A DNA stretch of 64,000 bases, taken from NCBI GenBank assembly GCA_031213475.1, contig JARUPZ010000027.1, positions 496,001 to 560,000 on the forward strand, given 5' to 3'. Shown here one piece after another: positions 1-64,000 of the stretch. How positions within the stretch are numbered: the first letter of the stretch is position 1; each line of letters opens with the position of its first letter. The notes below the pieces were generated by a model. That model ran no database searches and was not told the origin of the DNA. It saw only the letters and a program-made list of their open reading frames with translations. The translations under genes and the position numbers were made by a program. The DNA is from Nereocystis luetkeana. Lineage: Eukaryota; Sar; Phaeophyceae; Laminariales; Laminariaceae.

Positions 1-807
1 CGCCTGTGGCGTGCCTATCTCCACGCGCCTGAAAGCTACGGCCTAGCCCGTCCCCCTCGACTGACTTGTCGGATTCTGTGAGCTGAATTATGCCATACAT
101 ACCGGAGCACGTGTTGTTTATACCACATACATTCCGCTATTTTGCTACAGTTCGAAGTTATCGACGTTTCTATTGTTAGTATTATAGGCTCCAAATCGAA
201 AGGCTAACACCTGCTACCTGGTATTTTCATTTTTATCATTTTTGAAGAAAACAGCCATCAAAAAGTGCATAAAACTAAAATTGAGGTCCATATTTTGAGG
301 AAGGTAGATAGGTACGAGTATGGCTAATAAATAACATATCGGCCTTAGTTCAGAAAAATTATCGAATGTGCCCTGATCTCTTTCAGTCCAGAAATTGGCA
401 ATGAACTATTACCTCCCACAACGGGTGTGCAGTCCTAAGGCACCTCAGTTGTGTGTGTTTTTTCGCTTGTCTACTTAGCCCTGTGAGGCCGCGGAAAAAC
501 AAAATCGAGTCGAGACCTATTAATAAACAGCTAGACCTTTTCAGCCGAGGGGGCAAAGGGGCCGCCCCCCCATAGACTGGCTGTGGCTTTAGTACTTTGG
601 GTTATTGTTATTCATCACGTGTTTTTCAACCAACTCGAGACGGTTTGTCATGGCCGCGAATCCTCGCCCGGTGGTCTGGCCGGCCGGCGAAGTCTCTTTC
701 CTAGTCGATGCTGACCGCTCTGTGGGTCTCTCGCACAGCACCGCGAGAAAAAAAAAAAAAAAATAGTGAAAAGCCCTGCAGAGAATAACAATAATAATAA
801 GAATAAC

Positions 808-902
<95 letters not shown>

Positions 903-1046
903 TAATAATAATAATAATCTCTTGATATATAGTAAATTATAATGGTGTTCAGTCGACACATCCTCGACTCAAGCGGGTTCGTTCAGACAGCATTAGGTCA
1001 CCTCTAATCAATGTTGCTCGTACCCACTGCTGTGCTTCATTCAACC
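1..1046. other. 5' flank without recognisable gene
   Basis: No convincing coding exon was found. The stretch holds one TACCTGGTA motif at 215, a TATTAATA-type site near 519, a poly-A run at about 749-763 and a long AAT microsatellite (separate entry). Open frames across the microsatellite encode only poly-leucine or poly-tyrosine and are artefacts of the repeat. Confidence 0.6.
786..919. repeat. AAT trinucleotide microsatellite
   Basis: About 45 units of AAT with a few AAC/AAG interruptions near both ends. It lies in non-coding sequence upstream of the first gene. Confidence 0.97.
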
Positions 1047-1155
1047 TATTACGGGGGACCGTAGTTAATAGGACCTATGATCCACACAAAAATATATATA
1101 TTTACCTATTTTTACTCACAATATTTGGTCCTATTAACTATGGTCCCCCGTAATA
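1047..1155 (+). mobile_element. 109-bp MITE copy A
   Basis: Full-length copy of the hairpin family. It starts TATTACGGGGGACC and ends GGTCCCCCGTAATA, and the left half is largely complementary to the right half (GTTAATAGGACC against GGTCCTATTAAC). Length is exactly the family consensus of 109 bp counting both flanking TA. It is non-coding. Confidence 0.95.
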
Positions 1156-1194
1156 ATGTCGCCACTCCGTGTGCACCCTCGTTTAGCGATACCC

Positions 1195-1303
1195 TATTAC
1201 GGGGGACCATAGTTAATAGGACCTGTGGCATACATAAAAACCTATATATTTAACAATTTCTACTAACAATATTTGGTCCTATTAACTATGGTCCCCCGTA
1301 ATA
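1195..1303 (+). mobile_element. 109-bp MITE copy B, just upstream of gene 1
   Basis: Full-length 109-bp copy with intact terminal inverted repeats. It ends 41 bp before the ATG of the SMP-30-like gene at 1345, so it must lie in the 5' UTR or core promoter. Only 39 bp separate it from copy A in the same orientation. Confidence 0.95.
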
Positions 1304-1344
1304 GGTGGAGCAACGGTGGGGAACACAGCAGCAGCAGCAGCACA

Positions 1345-4300
1345 ATGACGTGGTCGGGGATCTTGGCGAGTTTGCTCTTGCTCGGAGCCGCAGCTGGAAG
1401 CTCAAGACTGGATGTGATCCAATTGCCTCTCGGCTTTGCTCCAGAGGGGATCACGCTCGGCAGGGAATGGACCGCCTTTGTAGGCTCCCGCGTCCGTGAG
1501 GACCCTTTTCTGGCATGATGTCTGTACTTTCTGAAAATATTATGAGCTTTATGAGTAGTAGGTGTGCTCACGTAGGGGAATATAGATACTCGCTCTCTGG
1601 GAATACCCGGGTACCTACCCGACTATAACTTAAACTCTCGGCTTGGGTACCCGGGTATCCCCGAAGTCCGAATGCGATTGAATTGCTTGCCGGCTTTTTT
1701 TGTATTTTCGCTGGAGGGGATCAGCCCGGCAAGAAATCAACCACCCACTATGGGTTGTAGTTGTAGGGCCTGGTATCACCTTTAACTCGGGGGGGTATAT
1801 GATATCTATATATCTATATATATACCCCCCCAAAAAACATGACTAAGTCATAAAAAGTTGATATTTCTTACCTGGTAGTCATGTCCATATCACGGGTATT
1901 TTTCGATATATCGCTATGAGATGTGATATATGCAGGGTATATGAGATATCATGCCATATATCGTGTGATATATCACATATATATATTGTGATATATCATA
2001 TATATGCAAATAATGTTTTACATCACATATACCTTGTATATTGTGATATATCACTTCATATCTGCCCTATATGTCGTGCTTTCCTGAGCTATTGTCGCCT
2101 ATATATGTGCGTCACCGCCGTTTCACATCGGTACGTAAGTCTTGCTCATGATTGGGGTCTGACATGTGCCACACTGATGGCAGAGCACTTGCTCGGTACT
2201 TGGCGAATTGTGCCCGCTACGTACGACCCGATACACAAAATGCATGAATTATGATATAACAACCCTTCTCCGCGAGGTTATATGCCTTGTAGATGTGTGG
2301 TGTAATGCAGACAACAGTTAGTTTGTGTATTGCGATGACCACAACATTGTGTACACTCTCTGCCGGTAGTATTTGTACCAGGTACAAGGTAGGCACATAT
2401 ATATATATCGATGTCGAAGGCGACTGCGTGCTGTAGCTGTGGCTCGCTTGTGGCCGCAGGCGATGGCGCGTTCGACTCGCTCATCGCGGATCAAAACCGC
2501 ACGACAGGGAGACAGCAGCAGCGGACACAGACCCCTGGTGCGTTCCCTTGTGTGTGCGTCACGCTTCGTACTCGTACTCGTATCTACGTACCAGGTATAT
2601 ACTGCACGTATATTCCGCCCAAAATGTACGCCCGAAAGATGCAAGAGATATCGTCAAGACAGCAAAAAAAGTCGATATATTATGCCACATATCGGATACT
2701 ATTAGCTAGATCACGTGTTTCACCTCATATAGGCCGATATATCATCTTATATCACCTTATATAGGCCGATATATCGCTTCATAGCGGGCGTATATATCAT
2801 ATACCAAATATCATATCACGTTTTAGTCATATCGTGCTGAAAACCCCTATATATAGGGATGTAATACGATATGATATATTTCGCATGTTCCGGCGAAAAA
2901 AAACATGACTAAGTACTAACTATGGAAATATCATATCGTATACCTGGTAGGGGGTATATATAGGGTAGCCCTATACTGATACCAGGCTCTAATGGGTTGG
3001 CTATCTTGCCGGGAAGGGACATTTTGCGGCGCGCTGTCCGTCCTTCCTGAAAAGTGTGAACGTATTTTACTAATTTTACTATCAACACCTGCAGTAGGGT
3101 ATACTTTGAAATATAAAAACCAAAATGGAATCTACTACGAGTAGCTGCCGAGAGCGCCTAGCGTTGGTGGGCGTAAAATTGAACGCGAGATGAAGAAAGA
3201 AGGAAAAGCTGAACCTTTCTCGTGATGATAAAAATGCAAGGAAGGCGCGTACCGTAGTGTAGACGAGAGGGCGGGGGGGGCTGCTACGTGACCCCGGGTC
3301 TGAGTCACGACGAGGAGAGAGCAGCAGGAAGAAGGGCTAAGATGGCATACTTGGTATGGGACATAAAATTAAACCAGGCATGTATATACCAGTACTATTA
3401 ATATTTATGGGGGTACTCGAGTACCTACCAGGTATGCAAGTACGACTAAAACTGTCCAAGTTCGGTACCCGGATATCACAGAGCGTTTACCTTGCCAAGA
3501 CCACCCTTCAAATGTAACCTTTGGCGGAGGGGCAACGGCCATAGGGCGGGCGGTGGGTCTCGGGGAGCACACTCGATCCTTATAATCAAAATATGCGTTA
3601 GGAGAACGTGTGAATATACGTGTACATTAACGTCGTCAATGGCATCGTACCAAGCATATTGTGCATGCATGTGTGTAGTCTCGATATTAATAGTACGCAT
3701 CGTTCCAACAGCGTGCACACGCCCGACCGGACAGATGGATCGATTTGGAAGGGAGACCTTCTCACCGGACAAGGAGAGGTCGTCGTTACGGACGTCGGTA
3801 GCTCAGCGCTTGGTCTGGAGCATGACCGGCGGTCGGGGTACCTCTTTGCTTGTTATAGGAGTTCAGGTAATGTTCGATCCTTTCAAAAGGTTGCACACGT
3901 ACATCGAACAGATCACAATCTATGAACAGATCATCTACAGGTAGATCATTACCGACCGTCATGAGGTGCCGTTTGGCATCTGTGCACTAACAACTAACTG
4001 TAGTATACATCCAACGCAGGAAACATGTACGGTAGGTGCATGAAGTAACAGTAATTCATGCATGTTGTACGGTTCTCACGCGTCAACAACAGCCATGTAG
4101 ATTTTACAGATAGATGATGATTATATCTGTCTGATCTATCCGCCCTGGAGGGCCTAGATCATGAAGTGGGGAACGGTGATCTGTCCGAAGTGTTAAGTAG
4201 TGGTCATCAGCCGCCTGTTGCTGCGTGCTTGAACATTACGCCAAGCAGAGTCATAGTTACAGCATCCGAGCTGCGCGTTTAGAATGAGCCGACGACTACT

Positions 4301-7300
4301 CGTAAGCAACAACCTACCCAATACGAACGTTAGGCTCACGTTGTGGGGGACACTAAAAAAAATGTATCAAGAAACCGTACTCTCAGCAGCGATCGCTCCG
4401 CTGTACCCTAGGCATACACTATAGTAACCTAGGTCCAAGGTTGCTCAGCGATGACGCCACAAAACGTCTTCAGCCTTAGCTCGGACGAGGTGTTTCCTGT
4501 TGGTACAGTAGGGACATTACTGGCTGCACCTTATTATGCTGGTCACCTGGAGACCGGTGTGGTATGGTATGGTATGGATTCATTCACATGCTGCTACAGT
4601 GCATCTGATTTGCGGTGGGAGATGCACAGTCACGCCGTACCAGGTACTTGAGTAGTAAATAATGCCTATACTTGGTAGACAAACTACTACTACTGTGTGA
4701 ATCGCAGCGAGTTATTGGTGTCGCTGTTGATGACGTTCTGGACACTGACACATCCCAGTGCCCTGTTTACTTTGTTTGGCGCATTGCCGTGCAAGATCAC
4801 ATGCAATCAAAATGCAGTTGGATGCTCTGCTCGAAAAGTGCACCATTCTTAATCGACCCACGTTTAAACCGTTGCTTCGCGCAACTCCACCCGCCAGCTC
4901 GCGTCTACGACGAAGATGATTTCAGCCTCGTGGCAGAGTTCGTATTTGCTGACGAGGGTGTAGTATCGCTGATAAACGACGTGTATGTCTCCAAGACCGC
5001 GGCATACTTCACAGACTCCTTCCGGGATAAGATTTACAAGGTGAGAGGCCTTTGTTTACAATAATACCTGGTAAAAAGTGCACACATCGGCCAGATCACC
5101 GATTGATTCGAATAATTCCCACTGCATGATCTGCAATTAATTAGTAGATATCTGAGAGCAGCCATATCTCCCTGATGATCTGAATGGTCATCTGCATGAT
5201 CTCGATCTCGTTTGCGGGCTGTAGGATTGTAGGATCTGCGTTGCCTGGCACGTGTCTCCCGGGTCGGTTGGATCTGATCTGTACCATTGCGCCAGATCCA
5301 GCCCGACATTTCATGGGGCAGGCATTATCATCTACCAGGGTACCAGGTATTGTATTTGTCGGTGATCTAGACGATTCAGATGATCAGATAGATGATGATT
5401 TGTGCAATGTGTGCCCACAACGAACGAAGCAAAAGTACGAGGCGCAAGGCGGAGGGAGGCTCAGAGTAGTGAGCGGTTGCAGTATCTCCGCAGCGGAAAA
5501 TACAAAAAGCGTACATTGCGTCTACTGTCCGTATAATATGTGCCGCGTGTACAGCAGTACAAGTCTTCTTCGCGCCTTCCTAAGAATTTGAACCAAACGC
5601 GCTGCAGGCAATCCTGTCGCCGTCTTCCCGGCCGGCAGCTGGCATATTATGGCCGCATTCCAAAAGAAGGGGGTAAGGGTATGCACTTTTGCAATAGACG
5701 CGTTCTACGATAGGAGTAGGCACTTTTTATGCCTTATGAGGCAACATGTCTGACCGATGATAGGGCTCCTTGAGGGCACTGATGAACTACCCCCCAGCGC
5801 ATGTCTTCTTGTCGCTGTGTTCGTCACAGATCTGGTCCATGGGATTGCTCGTTGGAATAGTCGTGGCTTTGTTTTATTACATCACTCAAACAGTTTTTCG
5901 GGTGATAACCACCACCCCCACCGAGCGAGCTTCTAGGCTTACTCAAGTCATGAGCCTCAGAAAATTGCAGGCGAATCCCTCCACCCCTCGACTTCGTACC
6001 AGGTACCAGGGGTATTCATTAAGGGGGGATAATGAACGTACAGGCTCCGCTATTGTTGTTTTGATAGGTGCACGATTACACTTTCACAAGCCAAACGAAT
6101 TCCTGATTCACACGACCGCAAAGAAAAATTAGGGCATGCCTCAATGCCACAAAAGGGCATGCCTTCAAATTGAGCCGGGTGGAAACGGGGGTCCGCACCG
6201 TCCGACCGAAAAACTCCCAAAATAAATACATGTTCACTTATGCTACGCATAGATCTGTTCGTATATTTGTTCTTCTTAGACCTTTTGGGCCACACCCCCT
6301 CGTATGCGCGCCGTTTGCGCAAAAGACGAAGATTTTTAGACCGGAAGGCCGTCCAGACACGGTCGTTGAGGTTTCGGTACGACCCGAGCGGTGTGTGGAG
6401 CGCGTACGTAGCGGGCGCCAAATATGTTTTTTGTCGGCGGGGAGTGGATAAGGCGCTCTCCCTTACGGGGTTTCAGCACGAGCCCTTGTTTCTCGCGCAG
6501 GCTTTTTGTTTATGCCGTCCTCCAGCGCACATAATCGACGACAGCATGGTATCCCTTGATACACATAACTGCTATTACGGGGGGCCATAATATATATAAT
6601 AGTACGTAGTAATCAGAACCCACGATGGGCCCGATAATCATATGTCCCCGTATGCTTGCACACCATATATCATTGTTTTTGGTTGCCGTCGTATGTCCTC
6701 CCGTCATATCGAGGGCTGCAACGTCTCAAATACCCCTGCAATCCACTACCTGGTCCACAGTAGTACAGGTTATCTCCATGGGCGCTTCAGGTATATCCAA
6801 CGATTTGTCCAAGCGACCCAACGACGTGTTACATACTGCAGTACGGCCATCCCCGCCCTCCTTGTCTAAACCGCTTCCACCCTAAACCGCATTCACCACA
6901 CACCCAGGTCCCGTTAGACGCGGATAGCGGCGAGATTCTGGATCTGGTGATCACCGACGCTAACACGATCACGCTTAGTCAGGAATTCGGCTTCGTTGAG
7001 GGGGACTTCAACGGGAATGGCATTGTGGTGGGCAAACACTGTGACTTGGCTGAAACCAAAGTAGCTTGCAGTAGTTCAGTCGCCGTAAGAGAGCCGATCG
7101 ATGCAACGTGCTACGATAGGACTGGCGGACTCTTCGACCGAGGGCCTACCTTGTACCTTTTATGTACCTTGTGCATTTAATGTTCCACCATAGTATTCGT
7201 TAGGTACATCTAAACTCATGTGCTGCCCCCACAATGTTGAGGTTCCATCGTAGTCTGTTTTTGTAAAGTCGATGTCAAACTCTGAATCCATGTGCGCGCA

Positions 7301-8516
7301 GTGATGACACAATTTACTGTAGTATTTAGAACCCAGAATGGAGCCTCAAACCAGGTGTCGCCCTACGTTTCCACCCCATGATTGGTTATCATTTCTACTA
7401 GTAGTATGTACCAGGTACCGGATGCTCCCGTGATATATACCGCGAACCCTGCACCTCAACCCCTTTCGAACTGCACGCAAGTTTGCAGTTTTTAGGGGCA
7501 ATTAAGCTCGTGTGGGGTGTTTTTTTCGCCGCTGTGTAGCGGGTGTGCGTGTCCCGGGTACGCTGCTCGTCGTAGTCGGGTAAACAACGTCCCATGTGGT
7601 GCATTTTTCTCCCTGATATGGCTTGAGTTTTGTACGGTTGTACTTTTGTCAACCAGCATATCATATGCGTCTCTTCTGTGCAATCTAGCCGTGACGTTTG
7701 TTATGTTGATAATGTGGTGCTCGCTCTGTCACACAATTATTTTTCATTTGCCAGGCCAACGACGACGGTAGCGTTCTGATCGTGGCTAACAGCCAAGCTG
7801 GTCAAATCTTCACCGTCGATCCTGAAACCGGCACCGCCGCCCCGATAGACCTCGGAGGCGTTCTTGTCCACGCAGACGGCTTGGTGAGAGTCCAGATCCA
7901 ATACCTTCTTTCCATTTGTTCCCTTCGCCTCATGCCCCCCCCCGGGCATCGACCGACTCCTCGAGACCGAGGGAAGTCCTTGCAAGAGAGTATCAATTAC
8001 TGACGCGTGCTACGATGAACGTGATACGAATGGCGGCACTCCTCCACCCAACATTGTCGAAAGTTCGTTGTTATGTTGCAACATTTTTCTTTCTATGCAT
8101 ACTTGGACCGTGGGATTCATCATCGGGTAGGACTCTTATTTCCCTCCAAATCAGCTCTCGTGTGACGTATAAAAGACATGCCAAAAATCCAGAGGTCTTC
8201 AAGCGAGGAACCTCGGAAAATAAAATGTCCTTGTTTTTTTTTTTTTTTTTTCTCATCCCATTCATTATCTTCGCACATCTTCTTCTCTCTCTCCTTCCAA
8301 CTCGTAACTCAGATCCGGGGTCACATAGCAGGCTCTTCTCCCCCCTTTTCCCGCTACGGTACGTGCCTTCATTTTTATCGCGAGAAGATTTCAGCCTTTT
8401 TTTCCCTCGTCGACTCGCATCGAATTGTGCGCACCTCTACCGCCGTAGTATGGGTCTACGATTAATAACACAGGATTACGACATTCTTATCATGCATGCT
8501 CGTTGGCTAACCGTTG

Positions 8517-8547
<31 letters not shown>

Positions 8548-11500
8548 CTCACGTTAACTCACAATTCAATGCAGTCCGTGGTCGCAGGACAGGCTCCAAT
8601 AACTCTGGAGTGGAAGAAATACCTCAAGTAAAAACAGAGGCAAAAACAAAAAACAAGCATACGCACTCCACCACTGCGGACACCAGGGAAGCAAAAAGGA
8701 GACTATTAATAGCAGACAAAAACCTAAAAAAGAAGATGAAGCTAAGCAAACAAAACAAAACAAAACAAAGTGTATGCTACCGTATGTGTGCGTGATGTGT
8801 GATGCATGCCATGGTTGGTCGTGGTCGCCGCCACAGCAGTAATATCATAGATAGGTCAAACGGTGGATAAATGCGGTCCGTTGTCGGGGAAGAATCTGAA
8901 TCGAGGCATGCTTTCAAGAGTTGTGCAATTGTCCAACAAAGCATACCCCGGTCGTATCTTGGAGCGTACACAAGTAAAACAAAAAACTGTGCAAACGGTT
9001 TATATCTATCTCAGCACGTCGGTTGAAACGGTCGGTGAACATACATATGCAAGTGTCCCCGCGTAGCCTAACTGTGAGGGGGCGAAAGCGTTATAGAAAT
9101 AGAGTCTATAAATAGCATGAGTCCGGAAAGTCATGCTTCACTATCGAGGCCCCGCCCTCGGCCAAATCCTCGGTGGAATGACATTTCTGCTGTATCAACT
9201 TTCGAGTGCGCCCCTTGGTACCGACATACCTGAACAAATGCGGTCATAATCTTAAGAACTTTGGCAGTCATTGGGTTCGTGGTGCGTTCATCGTCATTGG
9301 AGTACCACGACAAGCCGTCTATATCAGCGACAGCACCATTGTTGGGTGTCTCTCCGGGTACCCTACGCTAGTGTGTTGGTTTGATCGGCTTTTTTTGCGG
9401 CTTGGTGTGCTCCATCTGTCCAGAGGAGCAAGGCATTCGCAGGCTAACAAACGTAAGGGCATACCGTGCACCGTATATCGGGGGAGATAATATAGCACAC
9501 CCCCTCGGAAAACATTCCAGGCCGAGTATAGCGATATTCTTGAAAGCATGCCGGCTTATCGTGGTACTCCAATGACGATGAACGCACCACGAACCCAATG
9601 ACTGCCAAAGTTCTCAAGATTATGACCGCATTTGTTCAGGTATGTCGGTACCAAGGGGCGCACTCGAAAGTTGATACAGCAGAAATGTCATTCCACCGAG
9701 GACTTGGCCGAGGGCGGGGCCTCGATAGTGAAGCATGACTTTCCGGACTCATGCTATTTGGGGCCAATGTCATGCAATGGGTCTAGGGAATCAAGTCGGC
9801 GAGACCTTTCCAAAGCCACCATTAATTATCGTAGGGTGCGGCCCCCAACTAAAACGGTGGAGAAATCCACCTCGAAAACCCGTCCCAGGAGAGGTGATAT
9901 CTCGCGTGTTATAGCATGCGGCGTATTTCAGTAGGAGCCCCTCGCCGTGCCATCCATCCCAATCGTCGCTCTTCAATAGTTAGGTGGTTGCCGATAAATT
10001 CTTGGGGATGCTCCATCTGCACCGAGATTTACATGAGAATCGGGTAAGCTATTTGTTAGTAGATCTCGCTACTACGGGGAGACGTAGTGATCAGACCCAA
10101 ACAAAATGTGTAAACATGAGGAAATAGATGGTTTTGGGATCCCAGCGTGGGTTTTGATTGCTATGGCCCCCGATAACAGGAAATCCTGGTAGTACGTGCT
10201 GGTGAAAGGCTTAGAAAACAGAAGAGGATATTTATGGCCGAAAGACGTGGATTTCTAGCTTGGTCTTTATTTTCGTTCAGGGCCTTCGACTTCATCTAGA
10301 GCCGTAAAATCAGGCAGGAAGGCTTGCCCTATTTCAGGCAGTCGTATAAGTTCGCAACTTGGTCCGCTCGATGTAGCGTCCGACGCCGCTCAAATTTGAC
10401 AAAAATGTGTGCAACGCGTGCGCAATCTCATCGCTGTTGCGCCTGCTGTACGCCCCGATATCACCGCTACACGCGTCAAACGAACACTGTCAGGTTCTGC
10501 GCAAGAACACCCTTTGGGCTGTCGATGGTGGTGGTCGCAGCGTCTCCGGGGTGCAGCAAATCACGGAGGTATGTCATAGCACGGCGACAAAAAAACGTGT
10601 TGGTCTTGCCTGAAGTGTGACGACTCGGGCGGGGATAACTTCCGGTCCACGGGGATCAATAGGCGTCTGTGCGCCACTTGTGTCGTCTCCCTTGGATGTG
10701 TTGGTTTGGGTTCTGACATGGTCCACACTTCTCGCCAAGCAGTATTCGGGGTCTAGCGGCCGAACCTATTCTGACTATCGCGCGACCAGCGATTTCCTCC
10801 GCTAAAACTTTCGTTCCATTCGAACCTTTATGCTGCGTAACCGGGCTACGGCAGGTATCGAGGTTGAATTTGGGAGTACTACAGCATGGCCAAAACAAGT
10901 CTCACTGACGGGGCTCCTCAACTAGTGCATCAACCATTGCAACGCTCAAAACTCCCTAATACCCTTACATCCGAGATGTATTCAAACTCAGGCTCATATC
11001 CTTCCTTAGAAATCAGGTGTTCGCTGTTGCGTATCGTAGAGCTCCTTAGGTGCGGCGACTATTAATAACAAAAAATGTTACCACCTCTACTACAATCGTA
11101 GCACGCGACTTCGTGTGCTGTTGTATGCACTACTTACGAATTCAGTGCCACGTTCGTTCCGGTCCCCATCGGGTCGTCGAGCACAAACGTATTGGCCAGC
11201 TTTTGTAAAGTGCTGACCCAGCTTTCAATGCCCCACTGCAGTCCGCTCCTACGCAGACGTCGACGTACCTGGCATACAGCTGCAGCTCTGTTTACGAGTG
11301 CAGTGTCTCGTCCGGTTCAGCTCCATCATCAGGTCGTCGAGCCGAAACGTATAGGCCTTCCCTTTGCAAAAGTGCTGATTGGGCTTTCAATACCCTACTG
11401 TCCGCTCTTACGCAGATCCCCCTTCCAACTTACTGGTCTTCCTTTGCTAAAGCCGCGGCGACGTCGGCAGCGCTCTTGCTTTTGAGGGGGTACATCCATC

Positions 11501-14977: not shown

Positions 14978-17442
14978 TTGGCGCCCAAAATATTTCTGAC
15001 TGGCGTAGCTCCTTAAGACCACGCTGGCACCCCAAGCGTCTCCGGGTCCCCGGATTCCAGTTACTCTAATCTCTAGATGTTGTATCGGAACAGGAGTAAA
15101 AACATCGCTACTTCATCACGCTGCGTTAAGATATTCGGCTGGTTCGCGCTTGACTCGAAAGGCGTTTATCACAGCAGCTTGTGTTTCTCTGAAGATTGCA
15201 CACCCGTAGGTTCTCAACAGAGGCCTAAACCTCGACGTAAAGGTGCTGCAGCGGTCGAAATTGGTCGGAATTAGCGGTAAACAAAATGAGACAAAAATAA
15301 CCCACACCTAAATATTTTCACTTTACTTGCTGACAGCTACAGCTCCTCCTAAGAGCCTGCAGCCCGCAAAATTGAGGGATGCTCCGGATGGGGTGTGCGA
15401 GAGCGTCGGGCGCCGCACGGCGTTCATCGGCAGCCAAAACGGTTCACGAGGTGTGTTCGTGACCTCGGAGTTTCGAGCGGGTAGCATGAAAGCTCGCGAG
15501 AATAAGAAAACATTTCATTTCTCGCGCGAGAGCATAGTGCAAAGGCTATATCGTCGACGAAAAAAGGGCCTTCACGAAATAATGCTGCCATCCAGGAAGA
15601 TGCTATTATCTTGAGGAGTCGTCGTCGAACATTCTGCGGAAGGGAAAACTTCGTTTCCATGACAGGTAGAACGTTTTGGGCCCAAAACATGGCAAAAAAA
15701 GGGCTAAAAAGCTGGGTCCTCTTGTTTCATTTGCAAAAATTATTCTCAAACCTCAAGATACGGATCTTGGATGCAAATCCCTTTCTCTAACTCCAAGTCG
15801 TATGTATATGTATTGCCGAAACGCCTAAGCGCGGGTACTTGACGACGCATTCCTAGGGGTGCTACCTGTAGCGTCCCCTTAAGAGAACTGAGGAGCCAAA
15901 CTACACGGTATCCCACTAATGCTGCACGAGGTTTTGCGGCAGCACCTTGTGCAATACAAGTAGTAGTATTAGTAGCTAATCGTGAGATTTTTCATGAAGT
16001 CAAGCCCACGCATTTATCAAAAGTTAGTTTGCGCCAGGTATGGAGTTGTTCAAGTGAAGAGCCTCAGTAGATTGCTGGTGCACACTACCGCAGCATGCGT
16101 CATACCAGGTACCAAAGCATACATTAGTCGTGCTCGGGACGTACGACCTCTGCTGTGTCCCACCCACCTGGCGTGCCTGAGTTACTGCTGACCACTCTCG
16201 TGGCGTTCGCCACCAATTTCACCACACGAGACACCACACGAATGGTCAGTAAGCGGATCGACCTTGACATGTATTATTTTGTCATCTCCTATTTCTACTG
16301 CAAAAATTATCCCACCCCACTACGTACGTAAATTTTTCTCATGTGTCCCAAACAACTTGGGTGCAGTTTTCTAGAATATTGAAATTTACCAGGTATCCCA
16401 TAATAACTGCAAGATAGTTTTTCCCTAGGGTACAGATCGAAAAGATATGATACCCACCCACAGTCTCCGCTTCTAACCAAGGCGGGCGCAGACCGCAACG
16501 TCACACAGGTATGCGGGAAGGTCCGCCTCAGCAGTTACTGTTGTTCTGCATCCAACAGACAGGTGCAAAAGACCACAAACGACCGACAGTTCGAAACGCA
16601 GAAGTTCGGAATCGATGGGGAATGCAGGCAGGGAGAGGGTGCCAGGATCATTGCCAACGTTCCAGAACAACCCACCCGACATAACAACGTCTCCGAGGTG
16701 GCCGAATATTTCAGTCAAGTTATTATGGGTGCAGTAAACCCAGAGCTTCCACCCCCGCCACGCCAGTACCACGAGCGTGGATGGTGCGAGCCTGTGGAAA
16801 CTGCGGTCGCCGTTAAGACAGCATTGGTTTCACTAACGTAGGTACGAAAACCATTGCGCGCTAACCCCCGGTGAACGACCACGCGGCAGTTCCCGAGAAC
16901 CATGAGCGCGAATCTCCGAGAGGTGATTGCCGCATAATAGCTAGCATGCAGAGAGCTTCGCCGAAACTGGGAGAACCCTCACCGACAACGATCGACGTGG
17001 ATTGTACAAGCCTTTGAAACACACGGTGGGTTTGGAAGATCGTCAAAATGAGGGGCACGTGGCACGTCGTTGACGAGAATCTAGCACGTTGCTAGAAATA
17101 AGATACGCTCTCGTGAATGATTGGCGGAGGCTTTCCACGATCTTCTTTCTACACACGAAAACGCCTACTGTAGACGTTGACCCCACTCCCAGCGCCCGAT
17201 CTTCGCAACGGCCGGTCGAACGCTCGCTTGGAGATGAAGAGTAGAGGTTGCACTTTTCTGACCAATTGATCCTTAAGTGAGGAACTACTACCAGTTAGGA
17301 TGATTGATTTACTCGCATATTCGTTTCAGGACTAGCGCTTACAAGTAAGTGCCGGTCGGGTGGCACGAACGAATTTCTTCTAAGTATTGTGTCGGGTGAG
17401 ATACTGAGCTCCTATTGTGAGGGGCTCAGGAACTTCTGGTGC

Positions 17443-38706: not shown

Positions 38707-38807
38707 TCTACCTTACTGTAGTACTCTATATTAATACCAGGTATCTATTCATAGTACCTGCTTGGCTCCGAGGGACGCCCTCCTTGCATTTACATACGTA
38801 TTTTTAA

Positions 38808-38916
38808 TATTACGGGGGACCATAGTTAATAGGACCTATGGTTTACATAAAAACCTATATATTTAACCATGTTTACTAACAATATTTGGTCCTATTAACT
38901 ATGGACCCCCGTAATA
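38808..38916 (+). mobile_element. 109-bp MITE copy H
   Basis: Exactly 109 bp with near-perfect ends (right end GGACCCCCGTAATA, one substitution). Interior matches consensus. Confidence 0.95.
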
Positions 38917-39461: not shown

Positions 39462-39576
39462 TATTACGGGGGACCATAGTTAATAGGACCTATGGTATAC
39501 ATAAAAACCTGTATATTCAACCATTTTTACTATTAATAACAAAATTTGGTCCTATTAACTATGGTCCCCCGTAATA
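39462..39576 (+). mobile_element. 109-bp MITE copy J carrying a TTAATA insertion
   Basis: 115 bp, exactly 6 bp over consensus. TTTTTACTAACAA has become TTTTTACTATTAATAACAA, i.e. TTAATA inserted after a TA, giving TATTAATA. Ends are intact. Confidence 0.95.
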
Positions 39577-47299: not shown

Positions 47300-47522
47300 A
47301 GAGGTAGCACATTTCCGCTAAAATGTTGACTGAATGACGTGGCCCCTGAACCCTAAATAATACCAGGTAGTCGGAATGTCAAATCTTGATTTCGAAAAAT
47401 GGTAAGTTTGGGCCATGGAATTATGCATCGTGATCCAATTTGAGTTTTGCTTGAAGTCAGTTGTTGGTTGGGGAGCCTCAGAAAATTCAGGGTGAACCTC
47501 TATCGTATTAATAGAACGCCTC
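47300..47522 (-). mobile_element. GGCGTTCTA family, copy 5, with TATTAATA and TACCAGGTA insertions
   Basis: Reverse orientation: AGAGGTAGCACATTTCCGC at the left, ending ATAGAACGCC at 47519. CTATCGTAGAACGCC of the other copies is here CTATCGTATTAATAGAACGCC, a clean 6-bp TTAATA insertion at TA. A TACCAGGTA at 47361 lies where other copies read AAATCGTCGG. Confidence 0.82.
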
Positions 47523-47640
47523 TCTGCATTGTTGTGGAGAGGCAACTATTTAATTTTAAAAAAATAATAATACCTGGTAAAAAATAAAAACAACAAAACG
47601 GCGCGCTTTCGAGCTCGGACTTGCGTCAGTATAGCACAAT

Positions 47641-47840
47641 TTAACAGAGTAAGTATTAATATTAATAGTAGTAGTATCTACATACATACCTGGTACCTGG
47701 TAAAATAGTATGGTATTCACAATAATAATATTAATAGTAATAATATTAGTGGTATTCTGTACTGTATACTCACTCGTACCTGGTACAGGTATCTGGCCAT
47801 CCTTTCTTACTACTGTAGTACCCTATACCTGGTATGTTCT
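47641..47840. repeat. Cluster of TATTAATA and TACCTGGTA motifs
   Basis: Within 200 bp there are TATTAATATTAATA (47654-47667), two overlapping TACCTGGTA (47687 and 47694), single copies at 47777 and 47826, and many TAATA/TAGTA words. It looks like repeated small insertions at TA sites. No exon is visible. Confidence 0.8.
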
Positions 47841-48323
47841 ATCTTCCTTGCCTTGGAATTGTCTTAGTGGATGCTTCAGGATGCTTCCTCCGTCAAAGTT
47901 TTTTTCTGATATTTCACCATAGTTTTGGTCGGTGACGCTCACGCTATGTGCGCATTGTCGGATGGCGAATGGAACAATAATAACACCACAGTCATTTTTA
48001 TGGGGATCGGCGGGCTTGTTTGTTGTCGATGCTTCTTTCGAAGTGTCGTAGATCTTTGTGACGGGTTGGTTCAAAATCGGTGTTTGACGGATGATGAGGG
48101 GTGGCGTGTCGAGTTTTCGGGAAAACCTTGCGTGGATCAACTCGGCTTGAGATGCCGCCGTAGTTTGACGCTTTTTTTGTACTGTAAATACGTACGTAGG
48201 GGTCTTCATTTTCCGTTTTTCCGTATTTTTTTGCGATTGCGAGACACGTTTCTCTCTTCTGTCTTTCCATCCCACTTACCAGGTATCATATTCGCCCTCC
48301 TTTTTCTCTCTCCCTCCTAGCAA

Positions 48324-53137: not shown

Positions 53138-53246
53138 TATTACGGGGGACCATAGTTAATAGGACCTATGGTATACATAAAAACCTATATATTTAACCAT
53201 TTTTACTAACAATATTTGGTCCTATTAACTATGGTCCCCCGTAATA
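53138..53246 (+). mobile_element. 109-bp MITE copy N, consensus-like
   Basis: Exactly 109 bp with perfect 14-bp ends. It matches the reconstructed consensus and serves here as the empty-site reference for small insertions in other copies. Confidence 0.97.
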
Positions 53247-53318
53247 GGACTAATAATAGTTAGGAGCCTGCAGCAGAGGGGTTTGGCTTGACACAACGCC
53301 GGCATTTCAGCACTCCGC

Positions 53319-53506: not shown

Positions 53507-55853
53507 CGCGGAGTTGTCGATGTAAGTCACGCTGCTTTCCGTCACCAAGGAGCCTCCAACGTCGATATGTACAGCTCCCCCCTTCAAGCCAAGCAGACAG
53601 CCAGGCGCAGCATGTAAAAGTGGCGCAGTCAGACAAGGCAGACGACCGAAGCAGTGAAGCGGAAAAGCCAAAAGCGAAGCGGTCAAGCGGGGCAGTCCGG
53701 CGGAGCAGTCATGCGAAACTATCAAGCATGGCAGTAGATGATACTTTGCTAGGAGAATATATTTTCCTTGGTTTTCTTGCTTTTTTTCTGTCCGACATTG
53801 TTTACCAGGTACCAGGTACCTGGTATGAATGAAGTGATCATACGTAGTTGATTGAAGGTCGTGCTACAAATTGTGGTGTGGTAGTAATAGTGTCATGCAG
53901 TTTTGGGCTCCCTTTGACTTTCTCTTTTCAACGATTTTTTTTGAGTGATCATACTTGAGGCTACAGTAGTTCAATAGGCTATTGTGGTCCAATAGTCTAC
54001 TGTAGGTCAATAGGTCAATAGGCTTGTCGTTTGCTACTGTTTCCCTTGGTCATACTTGAGGCTACAGTAGTTCAATAGGCTATCAGGATAGCCTACTGTA
54101 GGTCAATAGGTCAATAGGCTTGTCGTTTGTTACTGTTTCCCTTGGTCATACTTGAGGCTACAGTAGTTCAGTAGGCTATCGTAGTCCAATAGTCTACTGT
54201 AGGTCAATAGGTCAATAGGCTTGTCGTTTGCTACTGTTTCCCTTGGTATTCTCTCGAGGGATTTTCATGAGTGATCATAGTTGAAGCGCAAGCTACACAA
54301 TAGTTGGCGGCAAACACAATACTTGGCACGCAACAGTGCTTTTAAACTATTAAATAAGGCACTTACAACAAGGGCGGAGCCTTCGCGGAAGTTCACGTCG
54401 CCGACAATGGAGACCAGCCCGGAGGTGTAGATGTGCCCACCGTCCGCCCTGTCGACTCCCTGGGTGTTCGTAATGGAAGGCGTGTTTGGTGCATGGGTTC
54501 GTTGTTTAGGGGCGGCGCACGGGGTCCCTCTGGCCGGTTGAGAGCCGTGGTGTACAACTTGACTTTGTTTTTTCAGTATCGACGCAACCTGATGTTGTTG
54601 ATGGCACGTATTCTCTCGTGAACCTGCCGCGCATTTTTTGCACTGTTGTTGCTGCTGGTTTTGTTGGTTGCCCCTTGCATGTTAATCAGGCTTGAAAAAA
54701 ATACTATTGAAACTTTGTACAGTAGACGACGACACATGTTCCAGTCCGACCTAAATCGAACATCTTTCAACTCCGCGGCAGTCTCTTCTCGAATATCGGA
54801 TTTTCTCTTCGTGAAGGCTCCTCCTTACACCTTCCTCCCCCCCCTCGCTTGGCAAGCACTCGTTTAATTATTATTATTCCCCTTGCCTTCCGACAATGTG
54901 CAGCATGATCTTCAACATTTATCACTCATAACTTTCCCGAAAGAAGAAAACCTCGGCAACAAAACTCTCCTTTTATCGTGTACCCTACTCCTCGTCAATA
55001 TTCCACATGCTATGCGCCAATGGCACCAGTTGTTGTTATTATTTTCATTTATTTATTTATTTTATTTGCCTTCTGACAATGTGCAGGGCGTTATTCATTC
55101 AAAATGAAAAAACTGACATAATTCATTTTGTTATCGTTGCCCGTCAGAACTGTCGAGATGGTTACGTCGATCTCTCACGTGTCGTCTCCTAACGCACAAC
55201 CAATGAGGTACTTGACACGAACTCGAGTCATCAGGAAAACGATCGGACTATTAATACTACTGTAGTTTTAGCCGTTTCCCACTAAGCGCCGACTATCCTA
55301 CGAAGGAAGAGGGAAAACTGCAGACAAAAAAAAAACTCAAAAGAAAGCTCAATTTCGCGATAACTCAACTTAAAATTGCACCAGGTATGCGAGAACGTAT
55401 GACTGCACTATGACAAGACGCGATGGTTCGTAACGTGAATAATTCAAGACGGGATGGCTGGTGAACAACAAGACGCGATGGGTATATAGTAAGACACGGT
55501 GGATCGTGGACAACACTCGAAACGTATTTTCGTCAATAACGGGGTTTCCAGCAACGCACGACAGATAGTAGTTTACCACCTCGCACCGATCATATATAGA
55601 CCGTTGATCCCCGTAGTTTATGATCTAGATCTTTCAGAACGGATAAATAAACGCAAATCAGATTTGCATGGTCTGTATGATCTAGAGCATCCTGCCGGGT
55701 GGAAGCGGCACCACCTCCATGATCCAGAGCATGCTTTACAAAAATGTACGTGGTATCATAGATGTACTCGTACAAATATCCTGCACGACCTTTCATGTTC
55801 CCGCAGGGTAGGATACCAGACTATCTGTTGTAGACAGACGCATACGTCATCAC

Positions 55854-55884: not shown

Positions 55885-58800
55885 GGTCCGAGATTTTCAC
55901 ATAAGTTACCCATGACCCATGAGAGCGTCATTGAGCGTTCGGATTGGCCTGGTTCCATCCTCCTTACCGAGGCCTGATTACCCCTGATGAATCCGTTGCT
56001 GCCCATGGTAGTGGTGCCGAGGTTGTAGAGAGCGCCACCGCTGGCGCCGGTATTGAACTGCATGATCGCCCTCCGCTCGAACGCCGTAGATGACCCCAAG
56101 CCGGTGAACACCGCCCCGCCGGAGCCCCCAATTTCATCGCCGTTTTCTGCAAAAAAAAAAAAAATGTGGTGTCAAGGGTACAATGCATGGAATGTCAAGG
56201 GGGTGTACGAGGAGGGTACATTACATGGCGATATGCATTACGAGGGATCGGCCTCATTTGGTGCTGGCCTTGACGGTCTCAATATTGGCCGCGCATCCCT
56301 TAGGAGACACAGAGCCACCGTTCCTGCTCTCCTACTCTCCTAACAGCGATACCTCGGACCAGCAGTTGTGGGCGCTCGGTACGTCTGTGTTTCCTCCGTT
56401 ACATGAAACCGTTCTTTGAATATTTTATCCCCTTAGGGGGGGGGGCTACTCGTGTCATGCCGTCTCCATCCAATGTCGGGACATTAACACGTACCTGGTA
56501 CGTTTTTCACCGACCAGGCGGGGCAGGGAATGGGGGTCTTATATGGCACGTGGTTACTTACGTAGCCGTCCATAAGCGAGTTATCACTTTCGAAATGACC
56601 AAAATGTTTAATAAAAAAAAACACTAAAACATCTACGTATTAAAAAAATACCGACAAAAATACTATTACGGGGGACCATAGTTAATAGGACCTATGGTAT
56701 ACATAAAAACCTATATGTTTAACCATTTTTACCAACAATATTAGGTCCTATTAACTATGGCCCCCCGTAATACTGGTACAACAAAAAAAGCGAGCAGGCG
56801 GCGGGCGAAGAGTGTGTATCGATGTCTCGATTCCTGTTTGGGTGAGGGGATGGGACATCGGAAAGTATGGGCGTTATAGTATATCCCTGCCCCGAAACGC
56901 CTACCTACAAAACCAAAGCCAATTGCGTCGCGGAGGGGGGAGGCTTACAGCGCTAAAGCACCCAAACCAGATGTATGTGCAATCTTCTTGCTGTCAGAAC
57001 AGGGCTTCGTGTGCAAACTCACAGAGAAATGCACCAGAACGAGATTTGAAGTCGTATGGTAGGCATTGCGGATGTCGCCAGACAAAAGGCATGGTGTGCG
57101 CAACAAAATATAACGCTCTACATAAAAGATGGCGTTGTCTGACCCTCACCACGTAACTCGCCCTCTTGAAGGCGATGCGGTATACCAGGTAGTTACCTTC
57201 AGAAGAAACAAATGCCCCAGCCAAGACCCACTCATAGCATGGTTAGATGCTTAGTCACGACTACAGCAGTAGTAGTCGCGGTGCATCTTGTGTAGCAACG
57301 CTATCAATAGCGTTCAAGAAAATTAGTAGCTTTACCCTCTAGAAGACGAAACACTCCCATCCATAGCAGTGTTACATGCAAAGCCACACAGTGCTTGCTA
57401 CCGTCGATTCCGACTACCTGGCCCTCTTCAAATCAAGAGTCATCTTCAGCAGTGTATTCTTCCAATTCAAGGATCACCTTTAGCGGTGTTAGATGCCAAA
57501 TAGCTAGCCCTCTCAAAGAGAAGGTACCCGAAGTTGGCAACGGCACCGCCCTGCCCCCCGCTCTCCGCTTCGTTTTCCGTGAAGTACGAGAAGTCTTGGA
57601 AAGACACCTCTCCTCTCGACGCCACACACAGGGCACCGCCGTCGCCCGCGTCCACGTCGCCGTCGCTCAGCACCTTGTTGCCAAAAAAGTCAACAGGGTA
57701 CTTGAAGTCCACCTGCTCGTTCGCAAAGAGTGGGAGTGTGCCCGTATGTATCATGCCGTACACGAAACACACTCCCCTTATGCGCCAAAGCTTCGAAGGG
57801 CAAAAGTCGGCCACACCAAGCCTGCAGAGTGTAGTAGATGACTTTCGAGGAGTTTTTTTTTAGATCTCATGGCTGTTTTTTTTTTTTTTTTTTTTTTTCT
57901 CGACAAAATATTTTTAACCCATACTAACGTGTAATTAAATGCTGCAGGTATGTAATAATATACCAGGTATGAAACATAATTAGGAAGGGCCTCATACCAT
58001 GAGAACAAACTAAAGGGTGGATCAAGCAAAAGGATAACACAAGCGGTGGATGGGGTAGATCGATGAAGCTAGAACATCAGTACTGAGAATGACAAGAACG
58101 ATCAACGTTGAAGCTCATCCGTGCCACACATTGTCGAATGTGAACCCACTCTCAGTTCATTGTTTTGTTGTTTATTTTTCTAACCCATCCATGGTCTTCA
58201 CCGCGACCCTTTTTTTATCTCCCTCATATTGATTTATGGCGTATAGATACATAGTAGTAGGTAAAATATCTCGGTAAATGGTGGGGGTGCATATTCAAGT
58301 GAGTACACGCAGGGAAGGAGAATTGGTTCGATGAAGTTAGTGGTATTCGATGAATTATGTCAGCTTTTCCATTTTGAATGAATAACGCCCTGCACATTGT
58401 CAGAAGGCAAAATAAAAATAATAATAAGAAAATATTACGGGGGGCCATAGTAAATAGAACCTATGGTACACACAAAAACCTGCATATGTACCTATTTTTA
58501 GGAACATTTTTTGGACCTACCTGGTATTTACTATGGCCCCCCGGAATAGCAGATAGTGGTGACGGAGACCCGGGTCACATATAATAGCAGCCTCTCCTCC
58601 CCTACGGTTCTTGCCCACTATTTCGGGAGACCATAGTAAACACCAGGTAGGACCTACGGTACACACAAAAACCTATATATTTCCCTTTTTTTACTACAGT
58701 AACAACATTTATTTGGTCATATTTACTACCGGTATGGTCCCCGGTAATATTAATAGAACACTTCGACCCTTTCTTCCCTCCAGGACATCAACAGCAGTAA

Positions 58801-60325: not shown

Positions 60326-60368
60326 TGAGAGTGATATAGAGCAGTGATAGAAGAAGAGAAACTGCTAC

Positions 60369-60893: not shown

Positions 60894-60932
60894 AGTAACA
60901 ATAGCAAATATCAAGAACACTGCTGTAATACA

Positions 60933-60953
60933 TACCAGGTACCAGGTACCAGG
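60933..60953. repeat. Two chained TACCWGGTA motifs plus a partial third
   Basis: Copies at 60933 and 60940 share TA; a third begins at 60947 (TACCAGGAA) and lacks the last TA. All cores are CCAGG. Confidence 0.97.
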
Positions 60954-61671: not shown

Positions 61672-61992
61672 ATAAAGAAGACAAGCGTAGCATGCTTCCG
61701 TGTACCGTGTGGCGTCAGCTGCACAGCAGATGTACAGTGCAGGGTATAAAGGTTGACGAAATTAACTAGGAATTAATTGAGCTACTATTTACCTGGTATT
61801 AGACCTATGCCAATGGGACAGCGAAGTTTCAATAAAAAGTTTGAATTTCAAATACCTGGTACACCCGCCAAAATTTTCAGAACACGCTTCATATGGGCCA
61901 CGTAAAAAAAAAAAAAAGGCCCGAACTTTTGGGAAAGCCCGAAAAAAGCAAATCTGGGGCCGATGTTGGGCCAACATCGGCTTGAGAAAAAC

Positions 61993-62427
61993 TCAGGCCG
62001 ATCTTTGCTTCGAAGCGGCGAGATTCCGAGTCCTCGACAGACATCCATCAACAAAACCAACGATTGCGTCATGAATTCTGAACGGAGTGCCCTCGTTAGG
62101 GGCTCCGACCCACCCTAGAGTCACCGTCTTCACACCATGGCCCGTGTCATGTGGCGGGAGCTGACCAGACAAAACTTCTCCATCCGTCTCGAATAATGGC
62201 AAAAATATATTTTTCTTCAGGTTTGGGAGGATACCGTAGGACGCCGCTGGCAAGCTCTCGCCCCCTATAGACCATGGATCCACCTGATATCTTCGAGGCC
62301 GTCGTCTATATTCGTTGGCCTTGCCAGATACCGAGCGGGTTGGCCGTGGGCTGAGTCTATGTCGAGATCGAGCGTCGATCGTCGAACGAGCTGGTTTTCG
62401 ATCACTCTGTTGACAGTTCGGAACCAA
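61993..62427 (-). CDS. Open reading frame, unknown
   Basis: 144-codon minus-strand frame with protein-like stretches (FETDGEVLSGQLPPHDTGHG, GWVGAPNEGTPFRIHDAIVG). No family is recognised. It lies upstream of the Pmp-like gene on the same strand, but no splice-phase link to that gene's first exon could be shown. Confidence 0.2.
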   Translation of the reverse strand: MVPNCQQSDRKPARSTIDARSRHRLSPRPTRSVSGKANEYRRRPRRYQVDPWSIGGESLPAASYGILPNLKKNIFLPLFETDGEVLSGQLPPHDTGHGVKTVTLGWVGAPNEGTPFRIHDAIVGFVDGCLSRTRNLAASKQRSA

Positions 62428-63331
62428 AAAAACAAATTGAGCCGCCTGCAGCCGTTGGGGGGGGGGGAAATGTAAAGGGAAACATTCTTCTCTGTTTTCC
62501 CCACGGCGTCGGTGCGAGAAAAATTTCGGCTGTTTTTTTATGGCAATATATTTGGAAAAAAACTTTTGAACTTCGCTTTTCCATTATTGGCATAAGTCTT
62601 ACCTGGTAGTATTAATCGGATGGCAAGAGAAATAATAATAGTGTGGATCACTTAATTTTGACCGAAGAGGGAGAGGACATATGGAGAAACGTCGGCTGGT
62701 GTCATGTTTTCGTCTTCTCTCTTTCTCTGCTTTCTCCTTTCCCGTTTATATTTTCTCCTTTGGATTGAGTTCACTTTTTTATTTTCCTGAGATGTACGAT
62801 ACGCTTCAGTTCTGATGTGTACGTTATCGTGCTGCTTTGTATATACCAGGTATTTACTCATTTTTTATCTTTCATTTTTTCCTAAGGTGTTCTTCCACTC
62901 CCGATTTTTAGTGAGCCTGCCTGTCTTGTGGCCACGCGGACCAGGCTTGCCAGTGAGCTATTAATAAAGTGAGAACTACAACAACATGATGATATGCTAC
63001 CTGCTGTCATCATACAGCATACATACCAGCTATGATATCAGGGTCACATCCTGGTCACACCTACAACCTAAAAATATACTTCGAAGTATAGAGTTTGCAT
63101 CGATGCAACCACGTGACCTCGCTTCTGGCATGGCCTGCTCTATTAATAGGACACACGTGCAAAAGCTTTGCGTTTTCTTGCTCCACGGCGTCATGCGCGC
63201 GGGGGGACAGCAGTAGACACCAAACGCCTCTTCTTTTGGTAATCTTCCCGCTCAGAGGTCAACTTCAAATCGGAGGAAGTTCCCAAAAATGAAACACGCC
63301 TCAAAACATCACAACTTCCCTGTTCCGACCC

Positions 63332-63447
63332 GCTTTTAGGATTGCGGTCTGGTCTTGCGGGCAACTTACTGAGCAGCACGATATCGCAGCAGGTACCAGG
63401 TGGATTTCTCAGTAGATTATGCTCGAAACGAGACTGCAGTCCTAAAA
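63332..63447. mobile_element. piggyBac-like MITE copy, decayed
   Basis: GCTTTTAGGATTGCGGTC at the left and CGAGACTGCAGTCCTAAAA at the right with a diverged middle that contains a TACCAGGTG variant. Confidence 0.65.
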
Positions 63448-63538
63448 CACAGGCTAAAAGACTCTTGAGCGCCTCGCCAAAAAGGCACACCCCTTATGGG
63501 TACCGGTTCCAAGTACTCGTACCCTAGTGGCTTTAATT

Positions 63539-63875
63539 ATAAGGTTTACCCTCGGCTGGGTACGAGTAATCGATCCATCTTTTACCCCTATCGCTCGGCA
63601 GTCGGTATGTAGGCGACTCCTTCACATGTGACGTCGTCGAGGACATGGGTTCGAATCTCACTTTGAAGGTTCATTTTTTAAAAACGCGTGCGCGTGCGTC
63701 CCTGAACACGTGTATCTCCTCGGTTCCCCAAGTAAGTACTGAAATGAAGCGGGTAGGTCAGCGTACGGCTGTATACGGTACCGACGCCCCAAAGATCCCG
63801 CCGTTCGGAAGGGGGGGGAGTGCCACGTATAAAGATTACCCTGGGCTGAGTAATCGATCGATCTTTTACCCCTAT
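63539..63875 (+). repeat. Pair of diverged direct repeats
   Basis: ATAAGGTTTACCCTCGGCTG, AGTAATCGATCCATCTTTTA and CCCCTAT near 63539-63592 recur near 63829-63875 as ATAAAGATTACCCTGGGCTG, AGTAATCGATCGATCTTTTA, CCCCTAT. The sequence between them includes a B-box-like GGGTTCGAATCTC at 63651, which hints at a tRNA-derived element. Confidence 0.55.
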
Positions 63876-64000
63876 ACCTGGTAGCATCTTCACACTTTAT
63901 TTCTATTAGAGAAAAACGCTCATCTCTCACCTAGAAAAAGTATGCGGCACGCAGCTCTCGATGCATGAGTGTATATATCAAAAACCGGTTCCCCTGACTT

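Follow-up and report, generated by a model that had tools for sequence, protein, structure and literature searches.

TACWGTA is an excision word of the Sleeping Beauty type, whose A/T centre derives from an A:A mismatch. A three-base overhang is described for Sleeping Beauty and mariner in excerpts of PMC7827188. In plants, footprints contain 1-4 bases of the transposon tip (excerpts of PMC9632168 and PMC1925063), in Australopyrum an element was inferred to have inserted anew at a TA that an earlier footprint had left (PMC1925063, in excerpt), and Stowaway miniature inverted-repeat transposable elements (MITEs) are mobilised by Osmar transposases (PMC3660474, in excerpt). In the brown alga Cladosiphon okamuranus, TcMar-Tigger is given as 0.000% in PMC7318753. 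Here we examine the nonamer TACCWGGTA (W is A or T) in a stretch of 64,000 nucleotides from Nereocystis luetkeana (GenBank assembly GCA_031213475.1, contig JARUPZ010000027.1, positions 496,001 to 560,000; G000:C27:496001-560000 in our labels), which we call the window, and across the assembly of 465,085,209 bases in 1,987 contigs. Transposon footprints are known; a single genome with some 180,000 uniform copies has, to our knowledge, not been described. Among the titles and opening lines of abstracts retrieved from the literature, none described TACCWGGTA, a count of such footprints across a whole genome, or a footprint in kelp.

The initial annotation reported 48 copies of TACCWGGTA in the window, and we recovered all 48 as exact matches between 215 and 63,883. 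In 100 dinucleotide-preserving shuffles the mean was 0.68 and the maximum 5. With strands pooled, this is the commonest 9-mer of the window after poly-A. The assembly-wide count that the initial annotation proposed gave 182,395 copies against 1,744 for the control, the same pattern read backward. This is about 100-fold and not near expectation. The density averages 0.39 per kilobase (kb) over the assembly and is 0.75 per kb in the window; seventeen sampled 10-kb stretches held 0 to 9 copies each. The half-site TACCAGG occurs 134,587 times genome-wide and the reversed word 43,581 times. If W is A in half of the whole sites, about 91,000 of the half-sites lie within them, leaving about 43,400, and on this split there is no half-site excess.

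Further analyses used a sample of about 320 kb, of which the window is 64 kb; some results refer to 252 kb. The sample is not random: stretches L001-L008 were brought in by TACCWGGTA itself and L026-L033 by a transposase family. L005 and L006, which overlap L004, were omitted or dropped as duplicates. The overlap of L007 with L008 was cut in the insertion listing and in the MITE, frame, flank-distance, junction-join and residue-spacing/W-agreement analyses, and was kept in the W count, flank comparison, emptied-flank search, decay, half-site clustering, D1 end count and TACC..GGTA pairing. The plastid stretch L038 was left out of the later analyses (frames, flank distances and junction joins), and flanks shortened by a stretch end were omitted. 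The host had been taken from sequence alone to be an alga or stramenopile, which is right: the plastid PsaB encoded on L038 is identical at 717 of 720 positions to chain B of PDB 9ygv, presumably a structure from the giant kelp Macrocystis pyrifera, which indicates a brown alga, probably of the Laminariales. At 118 unique sites in the sample, W was A in 63 and T in 55. The flanks were not shared between copies, so no single multicopy repeat accounts for the word; such a carrier is ruled out, and the word is independent of any one repeat.

TACCWGGTA arises as a 7-base-pair (bp) insertion in which TA becomes TA-CCWGG-TA, with TA on both sides afterwards. Two approaches led to this result. We removed the 7 bp CCWGGTA from 106 sites, with tandems merged and sites too near stretch ends omitted, and searched the joined flanks against the sampled DNA. 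Non-self matches spanned the join at 16 sites, of which we judged 8 clear. These had empty sisters with a plain TA and comprised 27968, 28001 and 58518 in the window (28, 33 and 32 spanning matches, not all from distinct copies) and sites on L003, L020, L021, L022 and L025. The other 8 were weaker or poor; among them are 25826 and 47687, which fall in simple repeats, and 47361 and L008, where the alignments have gaps. The second approach made no use of the word: the sample was aligned all against all and every insertion was listed. This gave 863 insertion loci, 28 of them of 7 bp, and nine of those 28 were TACCWGGTA at TA, one in decayed form. The nine are 27970, 28003, 58515 and the decayed 58641 in the window, and one each on L020, L021, L022, L025 and L027; at 58515, L022 and L027 the aligner had put the gap a few bases off. 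The insertions on L020 and L021 share their position within a single repeat family and could go back to one inherited event.

The clearest cases in the window lie in copies of D1, an abundant MITE described below; the word's sites in the window are listed without strand. At 27968-27976, TACCAGGTA adds 7 bp at a TA of a D1 copy whose sisters read GTTAATAGGACC, the text here being GTTAATACCAGGTAGGACC. In the same copy, TACCTGGTA at 28001-28009 adds 7 bp at a second TA (sisters AAAACCTATATATTT, here AAAACTTACCTGGTATATATTT). A different D1 copy carries TACCTGGTA at 58518-58526, where sisters read CCTATT(A/T)ACTATGG and this copy CCTACCTGGTATTTACTATGG. The decayed insertion, CACCAGGTA, occupies 58641-58649. 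An insertion relative to an empty TA site, bounded by TA on both sides, is the configuration of an excision footprint of the Tc1/mariner type.

We conclude that TACCWGGTA is very probably a transposon excision footprint of this type, with which the TA on both sides, the A/T centre, the tandem steps of 7 bp and a minor form, TACCGGTA, all agree. The minor form, which has no W, occurs 25,126 times genome-wide against 9,325 for its control, and 20 times in 252 kb where 4.4 were expected. The all-against-all comparison listed it as a 6-bp insertion at TA at 58727-58734 in the window and at 5629 on L010. We propose that each copy would begin with a cut-and-paste DNA transposon that targets and duplicates TA and is then excised. 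The transposase would leave a short 3' overhang of the tip on each flank, three bases (CCA) in the case of a CCA tip. Host end-joining might then oppose the two last bases as A:A and fill in CC/GG, and resolution of the mismatch to A:T or T:A would yield TACC-A/T-GGTA. Loss of both A's would yield TACCGGTA.

This scheme can be compared with the frequencies of possible junctions. For several tips we counted, in about 321 kb and with order-2 expectations, every junction in which one tip contributes i bases and the other j (an i+j join). For the tip CCACTC, the 3+2 join was found 142 times against 3.2 expected, the 2+2 join 44 times against 10.7 (both strands) and the 3+1 join 26 times against 11.3. 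The 4+0 join was found 12 times against 8.0. We also considered a four-base overhang, CCAC, and rejected it since its own 4+2 and 4+4 products were absent (0 versus 0.8 and 0 versus 0.1). For the D1 tip TTACGG, the 2+2 join reached 146 against 4.2 (both strands) and the 3+2 join 12 against 1.5. The main join products fit a three-base overhang; TACCWGGTA has five bases between its TAs, and with a CCA tip neither end would contribute more than three of them.

A second word, TATTAATA, behaves like TACCWGGTA and fits the ends of the D1 MITE. As the palindrome CTATTAATAG, it occurs 22,282 times genome-wide against 267 for the control, and in the window it is found at 39531-39538 and 58750. The insertion list holds TATTAATA with TTAATA as a 6-bp insertion at 39531 in the window, at 2500 on L011 and at 408 on L025; the copy at 39531-39538 lies at a TA within a D1 MITE and represents a second footprint class. 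D1 is about 109 bp long and TA-flanked (TA-TTACGGGGGACC..). It contributes 48 ends to the 320 kb, of which the window holds 26, and 30 terminal pairs, some of which perhaps join neighbours. No autonomous partner of D1 was noticed, and no search was aimed at one. Rough scaling gives some 40,000 to 70,000 ends genome-wide. The copy TA-TTACGGGGGACC...GTAA-TA at 38808-38916 (+ strand) is one of many candidate parents of TATTAATA; others are at 1047-1155, 1195-1304, 37875-37984 and 53138-53247, among further copies. The trinucleotide TAC precedes the TA at 17 of 139 flanks of TATTAATA scars and at 10 of 48 standing D1 ends, compared with 3% of TAs, so that scars and standing copies share the target flank TAC|TA. 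CTATTAATAG appears to be what excision of the D1 MITE TA-TTACGGGGG leaves behind. By the same chemistry as above, a D1 tip TTA could pair TA with TA and yield TATTAATA. That a candidate parent of one of the words stands in number is good support for the general footprint reading. TACWGTA is also in excess (103 versus 41.7 in 252 kb) and is absent from the eight commonest 5-bp insertions, so we do not claim a third footprint class.

The initial annotation described copies on no fixed spacing. This needs two qualifications. Genome-wide, TACCWGGTACCWGGTA, in which two copies of TACCWGGTA have a common TA at a period of 7, occurs 15,917 times against 2 in the control and accounts for 8.7% of all sites. 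In the sample, 126 merged sites comprised 111 single, 14 double and 1 triple. Further, a TA begins exactly 7 bp outside TACCWGGTA in 67 of 251 flanks (26.7%) compared with 8.1% at random TAs. Among distances 2 to 29 none matches distance 7, the next being distance 2 with 43 flanks. Together, the tandems and the TA excess suggest that the scar is itself a favoured target. A scar presents a TA with a second TA 7 bp away, and some scars may have been hit again and grown in 7-bp steps.

The parent of TACCWGGTA could be a low-copy mariner-like element, the L039 family, together with a Stowaway-like MITE, a candidate pairing that we rate a little short of an even chance. The domain PF01498 (HTH_Tnp_Tc3_2) has 24 matches in the genome. 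L039 contains a 489-amino-acid frame without a stop, with putative catalytic residues D234, D355 and D390 that were chosen by eye; by computed spacing 34 residues separate the last two, as in a D, D, D/E triad of that spacing. Mariner-like elements of plants, by comparison, are DD39D. The frame also matches DUF7769 at a borderline level by hmmscan. The first 802 bases of the 5' part of L039 gave 45 DNA matches. Copies at 99-100% identity on C24, C1, C35 and C22 begin at query positions 60, 62, 76 and 62, at or just inside a TACCAGG at positions 53-59 of L039, and two old copies (71-73%) begin at 50 and 52. Members of the family are located at C20:960600-963000 and near 8371248 on C24, 3490280 on C22, 12541100 on C1 and 3889300 on C35. 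Six ends of the family could be read: TACCAGGAGTCCGAC (L039), TACTGGTAGTCCGAC (C24), TACACTCCGAC (C1), TACCACTCCGAC (C22), TACCCAGTCTGAC (C21) and one on C2. TA directly precedes the end in five of the six, and the first base is C in five of six; TA-CC is found in three and TACCA in two (L039, TACCAGGAG, and C22, TACCAC). The Stowaway-like MITE has ends TACCACTCTG with TACCA at the tip and is present at some 10-13 diverged places in about 320 kb, about 83 bp long and in one case inside a larger inverted repeat. A diverged copy in the window at 41719-41802 (+ strand; family TA-CCACTCTG.., here TATCACTCTG) is a candidate non-autonomous parent and agrees at 23 of 29 positions with a pattern that we wrote from other copies.

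Other candidates for a parent were tried. DDE_1 (pogo) has 28 matches in the genome, and the 8 loci that we read were without TA-CC inverted ends. Units of 31 bp, TACCTG..CAGGTA, at 24096-24126 in the window and 9317-9347 on L020 belong to another small repeat. Clustering of 319 half-sites for a standing parent gave no family resembling a terminal repeat. No close relative of the L039 frame was confirmed in viral and prokaryote genome contigs with this single protein as query. Transposase-like matches recur at mostly about 62-kb steps on C22 between 132135 and 620317 (9 copies) and at steps of 82-104 kb, with one of 201 kb, on C29 between 3890863 and 5049588; this regular spacing suggests arrays of very large repeat units.

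Several observations weigh against the footprint reading or its proposed parent. With a CCA tip, the one-base overlap of the proposed scheme would contain no base pair, and the uniformity of the product is then not obvious. There are exceptions to the three-base limit: the D1 4+0 join TATTACTA was found 21 times against 5.2 and the CCACTC 5+1 join 3 times against 0.8. The L039 frame scores 35.3 bits against HTH_Tnp_Tc3_2 in the genome search and 31.4 in hmmscan, where the cut-off is 31.5, and it matches Mos1 weakly (E 0.039). PF13358 and PF01359 were not found in the genome; for PF01359 no control genome gave a match either, and its absence is not shown. The first bases differ among near-identical copies (CCAGGAG, CTGGTAG, CAC and CCAC before TCCGAC), a variation that simple transposition leaves unexplained; at C2 the end lacks a TA in this position. 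One end of L039 is sharp; the other is a weak match, with 12 of 15 positions agreeing, and was equalled by 16 of 1,000 shuffles, or 6 of 1,000 if TA is required. No convincing parent with both ends TA-CC(A/T)G was seen in about 320 kb, where 27 of 30,304 TACC..GGTA pairs reach 15 of 22 matching bases. In a hand count of the listed + strand rows the W's agree in 40 of 59 tandem pairs (P 0.009), so part of the tandems may result from slippage by 7 bp. Lastly, a scar that sits in a repeat is copied whenever the repeat is, and the number of events is therefore at most 182,395.

The alternative that survives best is also a footprint, left by another parent. In this account the tips were CCAGG or CCTGG, the overhang had five bases and annealed (CCAGG/CCAGG) with one A:A mismatch, and the parent is now extinct or too rare to be sampled. 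The Sleeping Beauty analogue of such annealing is a CAG overhang with one A:A mismatch. A five-base overhang is the most direct explanation of the uniformity and of the W; L039 starts with TA-CCAGG and its other end matches in part. The CCAGG 4+2 join TACCAGGGTA, found 5 times against 0.9, is a weak point in its favour. Against it, CCAGG stands at one of the six ends read, that of L039, there is no excess of half-sites, and five bases exceed both the 2-4 given for Tc1/mariner (excerpt of PMC7913693) and the 1-4 given for Osmar5 and Ppmar2 (excerpt of PMC9632168). We regard this parent as possible, though less likely than not.

Selection or biased repair could instead maintain a highly iterated functional palindrome, such as HIP1 or a sequence recognised by an abundant protein that binds DNA or organises chromosomes. 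TACCWGGTA is palindromic, dispersed and about 100-fold over its control with unshared flanks, as such a site would be. But a HIP1-like word would be gained by point change and retained, whereas sister repeats show that TACCWGGTA is gained whole, as 7 bp at TA, and it decays. In 252 kb there were 119 intact copies and 117 single-mismatch forms where 58.0 were expected, an excess as for freely decaying DNA. Moreover, TATTAATA behaves alike with another sequence. Maintenance of this kind is thus very improbable. Slightly less probable still is a slipping 7-mer, in which TACCWGG units duplicate locally in the manner of a microsatellite with no transposon involved. The agreement of the W's in tandem pairs speaks for it, but 111 of the 126 merged sites are single, isolated TAs in unrelated repeats gain single sites, and a slipping unit cannot reach new places. 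The least probable reading, that TACCWGGTA is a chosen target rather than a scar, draws on the L039 and C24 copies sitting at TACCAGG and TACTGG, but is contradicted by the plain TA of empty sisters wherever a site has sisters, and no element was noticed standing at the window's 48 sites.

On the preferred reading of TACCWGGTA as a Tc1/mariner-type footprint, the decay gives a measure of age. Decayed forms exceed their expectation by about half as many as there are intact copies, which under neutrality corresponds to about 5% change per site, and at this level a low, steady rate of excision would suffice. If 1e-9 changes are assumed per site and generation, building up 182,000 scars over about 5e7 generations would take about 0.004 fixed excisions per generation, within the reach of a handful of elements. 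As a tentative extension, which we hold to be possible and rather doubtful, a few mariner-like elements may have jumped up to about 180,000 times in the ancestry of this kelp and left datable, self-seeding scars that outnumber the standing elements by orders of magnitude.

The word was also described as absent from reconstructed coding exons, and this stands in part. We used stop-to-stop frames as a proxy for exons in place of gene models. Frames of at least 200 amino acids held 3 copies against 28.0 expected by length, a strong depletion. Words of the form TA-N5-TA are nearly as depleted, and scaled to them the expectation falls to 7.8 (P 0.047). With other thresholds, the observed and scaled values were 21 and 18.4 (150 amino acids), 6 and 10.0 (180), 3 and 3.9 (250) and 1 and 2.1 (300). 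If TA is the target, the apparent depletion follows mostly from the scarcity of TA in long frames, and avoidance of exons is not strong independent evidence. Since a scar of 7 bp would shift the frame, selection is likely to contribute. An ankyrin-repeat reading frame (Pfam) at 19057-20280 is free of TACCWGGTA; the copies closest to it begin at 20300 and 20430.

The remaining copies in the window are exact matches. Those reading TACCTGGTA are at 215-223, 1869-1877, 2941-2949, 5065-5073, 21287-21295, 25641-25649, 29863-29871, 35327-35335, 41705-41713, 44924-44932, 47571-47579, 47777-47785, 47826-47834, 56492-56500, 61790-61798, 61853-61861, 62600-62608 and 63875-63883. Those reading TACCAGGTA are at 2376-2384, 2589-2597, 3426-3434, 4638-4646, 5341-5349, 5997-6005, 7409-7417, 16103-16111, 16387-16395, 20300-20308, 20430-20438, 25826-25834, 38735-38743, 48277-48285, 57183-57191, 57961-57969 and 62844-62852; a further one, at 47361-47369, lies in a diverged repeat where the alignment spans the site with several other gaps. 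Two copies with a common TA (period 7) are found at 24648-24663, at 47687-47702 and at 60933-60948, the last followed by a third half, TACCAGG. A triple array of period 7 with W = A, A, T occupies 53803-53825.

Other features of the window include a near-perfect inverted repeat at 9110-9759, with two 208-bp arms that are 99% complementary and separated by 234 bp, and a chromosome-internal tandem array of a 64-bp unit (TGCTCCGATTGGCCTAAGGTTAGGGTTAGGGT..) with telomere-like TTAGGG words at 40768-41045. A scan of the window with Rfam at gathering thresholds gave 0 matches and a tRNA search of the window found none. In the assembly, the psaA/psaB family is present on 63 contigs (among C62 to C466), which suggests that many of the small contigs are leftover copies of the plastid genome.

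The phenomenon is real, ordinary in its chemistry and extraordinary in its scale. Genomes do not usually show excision clearly, since the scars it leaves are short and variable. One uniform, common scar lets past excisions be counted, mapped and dated by decay without surviving copies of the element. At 7 bp each, 182,395 scars add about 1.3 Mb to the non-coding DNA. In brown algae, the rules of end joining and the choice of target could both be tested cleanly with this word. Run on such genomes, motif finders might present it as a regulatory element, wrongly on present evidence.

Among known systems, HIP1 of cyanobacteria resembles TACCWGGTA as an over-represented palindrome found throughout a genome; we know of no case of HIP1 as an insertion scar, whereas TACCWGGTA is seen as an insertion at TA. 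Precise excision in ciliates leaves one TA and no scar. The internal eliminated sequences of ciliates are like the kelp system in their TA boundaries and transposon ancestry. The footprints of plant Osmar, Ppmar and Stowaway elements are diverse, as far as the excerpted plant reports go, and those of the kelp nearly uniform. Stowaway elements target TA as well, and the kelp MITE ends TA-CCACTCTGTCCGGAAATATAAGG resemble Stowaway ends. Closest are the footprints of Sleeping Beauty and other Tc1/mariner elements, which have in common with the kelp word a TA target, duplication of the TA and a 3' overhang of the tip that end joining incorporates into the scar (PMC7827188, in excerpt). They differ in having three bases between the TAs, compared with five in the kelp, where one product dominates and about 180,000 copies are present in the genome.

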